Shown here: one piece after another, positions 8,282-30,506 of the stretch
How positions within the stretch are numbered: position 1 is the first letter of the stretch
Layout of the letters: each line of letters begins with the position of its first letter
Origin: Elusimicrobiaceae bacterium
GTDB lineage: Bacteria > Elusimicrobiota > Elusimicrobia > Elusimicrobiales > Elusimicrobiaceae
Direction of reading: 5' to 3'
Length of the DNA stretch: 32,585 bases
Assembly: GCA_028700325.1 (NCBI GenBank)
Contig: JAQVSV010000017.1
Coordinates: 1-32,585 of the forward strand
Translations under genes and position numbers: made by a program
The notes under the pieces: model-generated
Databases searched by the model: none
Told to the model about the DNA's origin: nothing
Seen by the model: the letters and a program-made list of their open reading frames with translations, nothing else

Positions 8282-9039
8282 CAGTATTTCTTCTCATACT
8301 GCAGTTTGCCGTTCTTCTTGTAAGACCTGCGTGAAAGCTGCTGCCCGTCTTTGTACACGTCCTCGTACATAAGCGCCCCCGACTCGAAATACGTTTTCAC
8401 CACGCCGTCGAAATTATTGTTTTTGAAATTGCCTTCGATCTGCGGTTTCCCGTTCTCGAAATACAGCCTGGTCGGCCCGTTTTTTACGGAATTTTCATAG
8501 GTTACGGTGTCATGCACCTTGCCGCTTTCGTAATAACCGGTGGAAACGCCGTTAATCTGCCCGTTCGAGTACGGCTCGGTGTTGGTCAGTTTCCCGTCGG
8601 GGCTGTAGACCCGGTATTCCCCCTCCCATCTGCCGTCTTTGCAGGAATAGGTTTCGCGCTGTTTGCCGCTGTCGTAAAACATCGCCACATCGCCGTTGCA
8701 TTTGCCGTTTTTCAGCATGGCGCGTGAATACAGCCTGCCTTTCTCGTCGTACATTTCCATCAGGCCGTTTTTATCGTTGCCCCTGAACGTGGTCATGCGC
8801 CTGAGCTTGCCGTTGGGATAATACTCGTTTACCGGGCCGTCCGGAATTCTGCCCGTAAACTTGAGCGTGCCGCCTTTTTCGGTAAGCGTTTTACGGGCCA
8901 CTTCCTTTCCGTCCCGATCGTAAACAATTGCCCGGGGCGCGCCGTTTTCAAAAATCCCGTCGTTACGGACGGTCACTTCCGCAAAACACGGCGTCGCCAG
9001 TACGGCAGCCGCCAGCATGGTTGTCAATGCGTGTCTCAT
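8281..9039 (-). CDS. Secreted MORN-repeat (YwqK-like) protein
   Basis: 252 residues. A signal peptide (MRHALTTMLAAAVLATPCFA) precedes a chain of MORN_2-type repeats of about 20-24 residues with the pattern Y-x-x-(S/N/D)-GK. Examples are EYYPNGKLRRMTTFRGNDKN, MFYDSGKQRETYSCKDGRWE and YYESGKVHDTVTYENSVKN. Such repeats form elongated beta hairpin rods. Annotations as YwqK-family antitoxin reflect repeat similarity and do not demonstrate a toxin partner here. It is probably periplasmic or cell-surface. The ATG has GGAG 7 nt upstream and lies 1 nt after the HD-GYP stop codon. Confidence 0.88.
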   Translation of the reverse strand: MRHALTTMLAAAVLATPCFAEVTVRNDGIFENGAPRAIVYDRDGKEVARKTLTEKGGTLKFTGRIPDGPVNEYYPNGKLRRMTTFRGNDKNGLMEMYDEKGRLYSRAMLKNGKCNGDVAMFYDSGKQRETYSCKDGRWEGEYRVYSPDGKLTNTEPYSNGQINGVSTGYYESGKVHDTVTYENSVKNGPTRLYFENGKPQIEGNFKNNNFDGVVKTYFESGALMYEDVYKDGQQLSRRSYKKNGKLQYEKKY

Positions 9040-27662: not shown

Positions 27663-27722
27663 GGCTTTCACTTTTAGGAAGTTTATAAAATAATAACAGG
27701 CAACGCATGGGCCGTTGGGCCC

Positions 27723-27757
27723 AAAAAAGGGACCCGCGCCATTAAGGCAACGGGTCC
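27723..27757 (-). terminator. Intrinsic terminator of the candidate noncoding RNA
   Basis: Minus strand: GGACCCG (27751-27757) pairs with CGGGTCC (27730-27736), extended by GCC/GGC, and is followed by six T (27723-27728). A second small hairpin, GGGCC-CAAC-GGCCC, follows directly. Confidence 0.85.
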
Positions 27758-28394
27758 TCTAGTAACTACCCACCTAACACCTCCATGCCTGCTCACGGCG
27801 GGGTACTGCACCCTCCACACAGCCCGCGGGACCGCGCACCTGCCGGGCTCTACAACCAACTTCCCCTCACTCGCCTCTAAACCGGCCGGACCGGCCGTTA
27901 CGAGGCACCACGCCCCGCCTGCTAGGAGTTCCGAACCCTGTTCCAGGGCGGTCCGGCTAAAACGCCAGATGGCGCGCCCAAGACTACGGAAACCCCGATA
28001 TGTCACGGTCAAAACCGGGCCCAGAACGGAACCCGCTCCCCAGGGAGCCGCGATTCCCGGCAACACCGGCGGACGACCGTCAACATTTCAAAGAACTGCT
28101 CCTTCCATACTGACGCAAACAGCCTTGCAACAGCTTCGCCCAAACCCTTCCGTTTCTGCACTCAACCGGTTAAGCTACTCCCTCCCAACCCCCCGCAAAT
28201 CAATCCGCTCATGACAACCGGCCGCCAACCGGCGGCCCTCGCTGAAGAGGGGCGCGCAAACTGTCCTGACCGCAACAGCCGCACTGACAGCACGCCTAAC
28301 CGCACTCCCGCCACTCTGACAAAATTCGCGAGTCGGCGACCCTAAAGAGGTCTTTTGCAAGCCCGCATGTTCGCGGGTCCGTTATAGCCGACCC
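27723..28394 (-). ncRNA. Candidate large structured noncoding RNA, about 670 nt
   Basis: About 885 nt between hydrolase B and the M3 peptidase hold no credible gene. The stretch is bounded by a consensus promoter (28400-28427) and an intrinsic terminator (27723-27757) on the minus strand. The transcript is G-rich and dense in short helices. The 5' domain pairs 28387-28394 with 28330-28337 around an inner stem 28362-28366/28373-28377. GGCCGCC-GGTT-GGCGGCC lies at 28220-28237. A junction is closed by 28075-28080/28005-28010 with an inner stem at 28035-28048. CGCC-ATCT-GGCG lies at 27963-27974, a two-tier hairpin at 27873-27906, and AGCCCG/CGGGCT at 27821-27849. I find no RNase P, tmRNA, SRP or T-box signature. 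It could also be a very long, attenuated leader of the hydrolase operon. Confidence 0.7.
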
Positions 28395-28399
28395 ACGAT

Positions 28400-28427
28400 A
28401 GTATACCCGGAAAACGCTCGTTGTCAA
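28400..28427 (-). promoter_or_regulatory. Consensus sigma70 promoter of the noncoding RNA
   Basis: Minus strand TTGACA (perfect, 28422-28427), a 16-nt spacer and TATACT (28400-28405). The predicted start is at about 28393. This is the best promoter in the window and it faces the gene-free region. Confidence 0.8.
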
Positions 28428-28459
28428 CCCCTCAATTTTTTCAGGCCGGAACAAGCCTA

Positions 28460-28489
28460 TTGCCATAAGAGGAATTTGATTAATAGAAT
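28460..28489 (+). promoter_or_regulatory. Promoter of the M3 peptidase gene
   Basis: TTGCCA (28460-28465), an 18-nt spacer and TAGAAT (28484-28489), giving a leader of about 50 nt before the ATG at 28548. It diverges from the noncoding RNA promoter 33 nt away. Confidence 0.55.
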
Positions 28490-28547: not shown

Positions 28548-30506
28548 ATGGCCGGAAATACCTTTTTGAATTTCGACTATACACCCACCTCAATCCGGGA
28601 AACAGGCGAAGCCGCGCGCGCCGAATATGAAAAACAGCTGGCGAAGATTGCCGCCGTCGCGGCGGGAACCCGCACTTTCGAAAACACCGTTCTCGCGCTG
28701 GAAAACGCCGGCGCGGATTATAGCGACGCCATAGCCGTGCCCGGCGCGCTCGCCTATTTCTCGCCCGATCCGGCCGTGCGGGACGCGGCCGCCGCATTTC
28801 AGCTGGAAACCAGCCGGTTCGGCATAGAGGTTTCCGCCCGCCGCGATATCTACGCGGCGCTTTGCCAGTACGCCGGCTCCAAGCCCACCCTGCAGCCCGA
28901 TGAACGCCGCCTGCTCGACCAGATGATGCTGGATTTCAAGCGCGGCGGCCTGCAGCTTGCGGATCAGGATCTTGAGAACGTGAAAGCCCTCAGAAAAGAA
29001 CTCGCCGCATTTCAGATACAGTTCACAAAAAACCTCGCCGCGGTAAAAGACGGCATAACCCTCCCCGCAGACCGCCTCGGGGGACTTCCCGAAACCTATA
29101 CTGACGGGCTTGAGCGCCGGCCCGACGGAACCCGCTTCATTTCGCTGGATTATCCGGACTACCTGCCCTTCATGGACGATGCCGACGATGCCGAGGCGCG
29201 CCGCGAACTGGAATTCAAATTCAACAACCGCTGCGCGCAGGACAATGTGGCGCTGCTGGAAAAAACGCTGCGGCTGCGGCATCAGATCGCGGTCAAACTG
29301 GGCTACCGCTCGCACGCGCATTTCATGCTTGAAGACCGCATGGCAAAAACTCCGCAGACGGTGGAACTCTTTCTTGACAACCTGCGCGACAAACTGCGCG
29401 GCAAAGCGCAGGACGAACTGCGCGAAATGAAACTGCTTAAAAACAACGAAACCGGGCAGGGCGGCTCGATGGCGGCATGGGAGTGGCGTTACTGGAACAA
29501 TAAAATCAAAAAAACCTGCTGCCATGTGGATCACGCGAAAATAAAGGAATACTTTCCGGTTCAGGCGGTGACGCAGGGCCTGCTGTCGCTGTGCGAGAAC
29601 CTGTTCGAGGCGGAATTCAGGCGCGCGGAGCTGCCCGTCTGGCACCCGGACGTGCAGGCCTATGAACTGCGCGAGAAAAAATCCGGCGCGCTGACGGGCT
29701 GTTTTTATCTCGACCTTTATCCGCGCGACGGCAAATACAAGCACGCCGCCTGCTTCGCCCTGCGCGACGGCCGCGCGCTGCCCGGCGGCCAGTATCAGAA
29801 ACCATGCGCCGCGATTGTGGCGAATTTTCCGAAACCCGCGCCGAACGCGCCCTCTCTGCTCACGCATGACGACGTGCAGACCCTGTTTCACGAGTTCGGC
29901 CACGTTATCCATACGCTGTTTACAACCGCGCGGTTCGGCCGGTTCTCCGGCACCGCGGTGGCTCGCGATTTCGTAGAGGTTCCTTCGATGACGCTGGAGG
30001 AGTGGGCGTGGGAGCCTGCGGTGCTGAAAGCCATTTCCTCGCATTACAAGGATCCGGCCGCGAAACTGCCGGATTCCGAGCTCGACCGCCTCGTCGCGCA
30101 TAAAAACAGCGACGCCGGCCTGACCCGCCTGCGGCAGCTGTTTTTCAGTCTGCTCGACATGAAATACCATCTCGCGGAAACAACCGACACCACCGCGCTG
30201 TATGAACAGTTGATGAAGAAAATCTCGCTTATCCCGATGACGCCGGGCACCCACCCGCAGGCCGGTTTCGGCCACCTCATGGGCGGCTACGACGCCGGCT
30301 ATTACGGATACCTGTGGGCGGCGGTCATCGCGGCCGATATTTTCGGCGAATTCAAGCGCACGGGCGTGTTCTCGCCGCAAACCGGCAGGAAGTTCCGTGA
30401 TCTCATACTCGCGCCCGGCCGATCGGAAGACGAAGTGGTGCAGGTGGAAAAATTCCTTGGCCGCCCCGCCAACGACACGGCTTTCATAAAAGGAATGGGG
30501 TTATAA
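28548..30506 (+). CDS. M3-family oligopeptidase (oligopeptidase A / thimet type)
   Basis: 652 residues, normal for M3A metallopeptidases, which clip short peptides in the cytosol. The zinc site is HEFGHVIH, with His448, Glu449 and His452; the third ligand is the Glu in DFVEVPSMTLEEW, about 25 residues on. FSGTAVARDFVEVPS and the C-terminal GHLMGGYDAGYYGYLWA, which contributes substrate-binding His and Tyr residues, are family hallmarks. No signal peptide. The ATG at 28548 is chosen for AAGGAG 8 nt upstream; an in-frame extension to 28476 starts before the predicted transcription start. Converges on cysS. It recycles peptides left by larger proteases (family knowledge). Confidence 0.95.
   Translation: MAGNTFLNFDYTPTSIRETGEAARAEYEKQLAKIAAVAAGTRTFENTVLALENAGADYSDAIAVPGALAYFSPDPAVRDAAAAFQLETSRFGIEVSARRDIYAALCQYAGSKPTLQPDERRLLDQMMLDFKRGGLQLADQDLENVKALRKELAAFQIQFTKNLAAVKDGITLPADRLGGLPETYTDGLERRPDGTRFISLDYPDYLPFMDDADDAEARRELEFKFNNRCAQDNVALLEKTLRLRHQIAVKLGYRSHAHFMLEDRMAKTPQTVELFLDNLRDKLRGKAQDELREMKLLKNNETGQGGSMAAWEWRYWNNKIKKTCCHVDHAKIKEYFPVQAVTQGLLSLCENLFEAEFRRAELPVWHPDVQAYELREKKSGALTGCFYLDLYPRDGKYKHAACFALRDGRALPGGQYQKPCAAIVANFPKPAPNAPSLLTHDDVQTLFHEFGHVIHTLFTTARFGRFSGTAVARDFVEVPSMTLEEWAWEPAVLKAISSHYKDPAAKLPDSELDRLVAHKNSDAGLTRLRQLFFSLLDMKYHLAETTDTTALYEQLMKKISLIPMTPGTHPQAGFGHLMGGYDAGYYGYLWAAVIAADIFGEFKRTGVFSPQTGRKFRDLILAPGRSEDEVVQVEKFLGRPANDTAFIKGMGL

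Follow-up and report, generated by a model that had tools for sequence, protein, structure and literature searches.

The ~670 nt between positions 28395 and 27723 on the minus strand of the window (the whole analysed stretch of 32,585 nucleotides from an Elusimicrobiaceae bacterium) are best explained, with about even chances, as a free-standing, lineage-specific noncoding RNA gene, an orphan recognised from its sequence. A promoter and a terminator are present, coding is absent and short hairpins occur in excess. In the proposed mechanism, RNA polymerase carrying the housekeeping sigma factor would start near 28395 on the minus strand, ~670 nt would be transcribed and decoded by no ribosome, and transcription would halt at 27723, where the intrinsic terminator lies. 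The RNA would fold into a series of short hairpins rich in GC together with a few longer helices, which would provide stability, and it would presumably act in trans, the simplest possibility being that a protein or other RNAs use it as a platform to bind to. A near-perfect and rare promoter, a strong terminator at the right distance, a long GC-rich gap, six noncoding frames and a density of short hairpins equal to that of RNase P count in favour of this explanation; no homolog, an ordinary fold energy and a G/U-rich, A-poor make-up unlike that of RNase P count against it.

The promoter is of the sigma-70 type and is located at 28427-28400 on the minus strand, with the -35 element TTGACA (28427-28422) separated by a 16-nt spacer from the -10 element TATACT (28405-28400) and a match to 11 of the 12 consensus positions. 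Sites of this grade, defined by at most one mismatch and a spacer of 16-18, number 20 among 1.65 million sampled strand-bases of the genome, about half of them being intergenic. The start of the RNA was placed at ~28395 (+/- ~3), a few bases past the -10 element. At the other end of the unit, the intrinsic terminator (27757-27723, minus strand) is composed of a 10-11 bp stem (27757-27730) followed by TTTTTT (27728-27723); it reads GGACCCG-TT-GCC-TTAAT-GGC-GCGGGTCC, amounts to -20.9 kcal/mol and shows pairing probabilities of at least 0.9 in the fold prediction. Between the two elements codon usage gives no coding signal, the log-odds falling below zero in each of the six frames of 27720-28469. 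The first-pass annotation had described a TTGACA/TATACT promoter with a spacing of 16 nt, a textbook terminator on the minus strand and about 670 nt devoid of a believable ORF, and all three prove to be real features of this DNA, the small ORFs that do occur scoring below real genes.

The RNA unit sits in an 876-nt gap between the genes of an M3 peptidase and of an LCAT-like hydrolase, which is the 5th longest among the 516 gaps of an 826-kb genome sample. The GC content of its interior is 0.62 versus a gap mean of 0.54, and its edges are sharp against AT-richer flanks. Structured RNAs tend to occupy long GC-rich gaps, at least in AT-rich genomes (PMC11109978). The 826-kb sample contains 86 gaps that measure 250 nt or more. 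Only two of them, namely the candidate's gap and one tRNA-gene gap, carry on one strand both a promoter (at least 10 of 12 consensus positions) and a strong terminator separated from it by 150 nt or more. The unit thus combines what characterises a stand-alone noncoding RNA gene, i.e. a promoter and a terminator of its own and no coding. Because these signals coincide, are rare among gaps and enclose no coding sequence, a free-standing noncoding transcript running from 28395 to 27723 is likely, and the earlier proposal of such a unit, to which the long GC-rich gap lends further weight, is well supported.

Local hairpins with at least 4 Watson-Crick pairs and a loop of up to 8 number 30 in the candidate RNA versus 14.9 expected from dinucleotide shuffles (z 3.3), a count reached by 1 of 1000 shuffled sequences. 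The same measure gives z 3.2 for the RNase P of this genome, a mean of 0.2 for coding sequence and a mean of 1.1 for other gaps. By contrast, the energy of the whole fold with G-U pairs is ordinary, with z values of -0.4, -0.77 and -0.85 in three calculations and of 0.06 once the terminator is removed; counting Watson-Crick pairs only, z is -2.1. As yardsticks, RNase P reaches z -5.0 and tmRNA z -2.9. Since the candidate strand is rich in G and U (and, unlike RNase P, poor in A), its shuffled copies pair almost equally well. The densest hairpins among the gaps tested belong to a different locus of the same survey, L115 8560-8975 (G000 C21; z 3.9 and 5.1), a GC-rich inverted-repeat stretch with a strong terminator at ~8924-8951 and no Rfam match, which is possibly another undescribed small RNA.

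With respect to individual helices, those of the first-pass annotation that were checked are all present as complementary sequence. The hairpin GGCCGCC-GGTT-GGCGGCC (28237-28220, minus strand) is predicted with a pair probability of 0.92-0.98. The best local fold is a long imperfect stem-loop at 28093-27996 on the minus strand, formed by ATGT..ACGGTC / GACCGT..ACAT and inner helices, for which the pair probability is 0.63-0.74 and the enclosing 150-nt window has z -2.0. For 27976-27881 (minus strand) either a GC-rich hairpin cluster or a multibranch closed by GCCGGACC/GGTCCGGC is predicted. The 5′ segment (28394-28330, minus strand) may adopt a three-way junction, in which GGGTCGGC/GCCGACTC closes two hairpins, or else fold back as GTGGGTC/GACCCGCG into a 5′ hairpin; both alternatives are complementary, the local fold yielding the junction and the longer fold the hairpin. 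The outer 5′ helix 28394-28387/28337-28330 is a perfect complement with a probability of ~0 in the full-length ensemble, and the multibranched arrangement that had been described is therefore devoid of energetic support. Of the large ornate RNA postulated in the first-pass annotation, the excess of short hairpins thus stands, whereas the fold as a whole is energetically ordinary and energy does not back a multibranched architecture; the ornate reading draws on helices which a single G- and U-rich sequence easily gives, and is not established.

Two further observations concern the interior of the RNA. Its 5′ end, GGGTC (28390-28394), can pair with GACCC either of its own 5′ hairpin or of the 5′ arm of the terminator (27752-27756), and in the fold models this alternative pairing could possibly act as a switch or as a closing helix. 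At about 28185-28160 on the minus strand, the sequence GTAGCTTAACCGGTTGAG is reminiscent of a tRNA D-arm; it was considered as half of a tmRNA-like molecule and rejected, as neither ARAGORN nor Rfam reports a tRNA or tmRNA here and the real tmRNA is located elsewhere.

Searches for relatives of the candidate returned none. Rfam, which the first-pass annotation had recommended as a check for a standard RNA, gave no match at the gathering score and just two chance eukaryotic models up to E 10, and the candidate is none of the standard RNAs; RNase P and tmRNA each occur once above cut-off in the genome, on contigs C1 and C3, away from the candidate, which is itself single-copy. Blastn against 341 genomes of the phylum revealed no homolog; weak DNA matches in eight other genomes (E 0.004-0.01) were dismissed as chance, those inspected all lying within protein genes. 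Single-sequence structure models of two sub-domains, R1 (stem-loop 27996-28093) and R2 (27881-27976), found no credible match in 235 genomes of the class. An R1 match of 24 bits in G109 was attributed to chance, as it coincides with open reading frames next to the start of a gene, and the top R1 and R2 matches in G003, the nearest relative compared as judged by M3 identity, are inside genes. Within about a third of the G003 genome no gap with a comparable promoter and terminator was seen. Likewise, no similar record emerged from phage and plasmid searches, no match to four exact patterns in viral contigs, and nothing similar to the candidate RNA from 80 named M3 loci.

As a yardstick, blastn recovered RNase P from 57 of 60 relatives and tmRNA from 39 of 60. 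Conservation in relatives, on which the first-pass annotation had made its RNA depend, was accordingly not found in the 341 phylum genomes while RNase P and tmRNA are readily found; because the same blastn detects these two RNAs, the candidate RNA, as judged from sequence comparison, is either restricted to its lineage or evolving faster than tmRNA. The host belongs to the Elusimicrobiota, the named neighbours of its M3 protein being Elusimicrobiales and Elusimicrobiaceae MAGs. Its genus has no other species among the genomes compared, the M3 protein is only ~50% identical to those of relatives, and these ~50%-identical peptidases have different genes upstream.

The candidate is flanked by protein genes on either side. 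An LCAT-like alpha/beta hydrolase (27671-26484, minus strand; Pfam LCAT, E 1.7e-4) starts 51 nt past the terminator and is followed by a tandem paralog (26487-25297, minus strand) that is 52% identical to it. A third LCAT-like paralog, 46% identical, is encoded elsewhere (G000 C7:44678-45655), and close orthologs of these hydrolases were absent from the other class genomes searched, the best match showing ~42% identity over a partial protein. The divergent neighbour is an M3 family metallopeptidase (28548-30506, plus strand; Pfam Peptidase_M3, E 2e-131) with a possible promoter TTGCCA-18-TAGAAT at 28460-28489 on the plus strand (10/12 match), which points away from the RNA promoter. Elsewhere in the genome, L111 6695-13082 (G000 C16) comprises 6.4 kb at 38.7% GC in a 58% GC genome; the codon model calls no gene in it, and it was probably acquired from elsewhere, with a codon usage foreign to this genome.

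This arrangement of genes bears on an alternative in which the candidate would belong to the hydrolase genes (27671-25297) as their very long 5′ leader, the promoter would drive leader and operon together, and the terminator 27757-27723 would be an attenuator that is controlled by the leader, be it through a ligand, a protein or ribosomes, with partial read-through. Although unlikely, it deserves real weight because the same-strand hydrolase gene begins 51 nt beyond the end of the terminator, with no good promoter of that strand visible in between, and because the RNA's 5′ end offers a possible pairing partner to the 5′ arm of the terminator. When the 3′ arm of the terminator is omitted, 27756-27753 pairs with 28390-28393 at a probability of 0.97-0.99, and a competing helix is hence at least possible. 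However, this helix would have 4-5 bp versus the 10-11 bp of the terminator, which appears unconditional; moreover, the 670 nt would make an unusually long leader and match no riboswitch or leader family, and the third hydrolase paralog lacks such a leader.

Rather unlikely, too, is that the 670 nt are functionless as RNA and represent a relic or a fast-drifting spacer, for instance a gene decayed beyond recognition, with a promoter and a terminator that are real or left over. This view retains some probability because nothing conserved was found, and it agrees with a fold energy resembling that of shuffled sequence and with an AT skew like that of nearby synonymous sites. Yet a relic would hardly be expected to show a GC-rich interior with sharp edges against its flanks or an excess of short hairpins, a six-frame comparison with the predicted proteins of the 826-kb sample uncovered no gene remnant, and a strong, matched pair of promoter and terminator is unlikely to persist around dead DNA. 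Very improbable, finally, is an mRNA for one or more small proteins, such as those of the 50-codon frame 28161-28009 or the 127-codon frame 28066-27683. Weak ribosome sites do accompany a few small frames, but each frame scores below at least 99% of real-gene fragments of equal length, the 127-codon frame crosses the terminator, and the frames match no NCBIfam or PHROGs family.

Should the transcript of the preferred noncoding RNA gene exist, the Elusimicrobiota, on which no study at the RNA level surfaced in a text search of open-access papers, would gain a large noncoding RNA. If it were in addition a conserved ornate RNA, it would enlarge the handful of large RNAs in bacteria that have no known role. 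We consider it quite improbable that the candidate is a large structured RNA of a new class, limited to a lone genus-level lineage of the Elusimicrobiaceae, an abundant scaffold or RNA-only particle comparable to OLE, GOLLD or ROOL and unrelated to them. An elaborate working RNA and a young or decaying spacer transcript are readings that both stand.

The candidate resembles OLE, GOLLD and ROOL in its size class of roughly 600-800 nt, in being noncoding and in having many short helices per transcript, while the Rfam covariance models of all three give no match to it even at E 10. OLE RNA is linked to the gene of a partner protein, OapA; the immediate neighbours of the candidate encode the M3 peptidase and the LCAT-like hydrolases. 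GOLLD and ROOL reside in phages and prophages, often near tRNA islands, and for OLE, GOLLD and ROOL alike the structures are supported by covariation (PMC12286853). In contrast to GOLLD and ROOL, the candidate has an ordinary chromosomal context with metabolic flanking genes and no tRNA in the window; the tested frames have no PHROG match, and no similar phage record was found. Furthermore, it is a single sequence for which no homolog was found, and hence no covariation alignment can accompany it.

RNase P and tmRNA of the same genome are likewise stand-alone structured RNA genes, and RNase P equals the candidate in its density of short hairpins; they differ from it in folding far better than shuffled sequence and in being conserved in relatives. 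With attenuated leaders and riboswitches the candidate shares the order of promoter, structured segment and terminator, with a same-strand gene 51 nt on, but it is far longer, matches no family and offers no convincing anti-terminator. Its closeness to the orphan noncoding RNA candidates of the GC-IGR pipeline lies in a long, GC-rich, noncoding gap with transcription signals (PMC11109978). Those candidates were accepted on their conservation in other genomes (PMC11109978), of which the present one has none; it is best filed not as a discovery but as a well-delimited orphan, like the finds of such intergenic surveys (PMC11109978).
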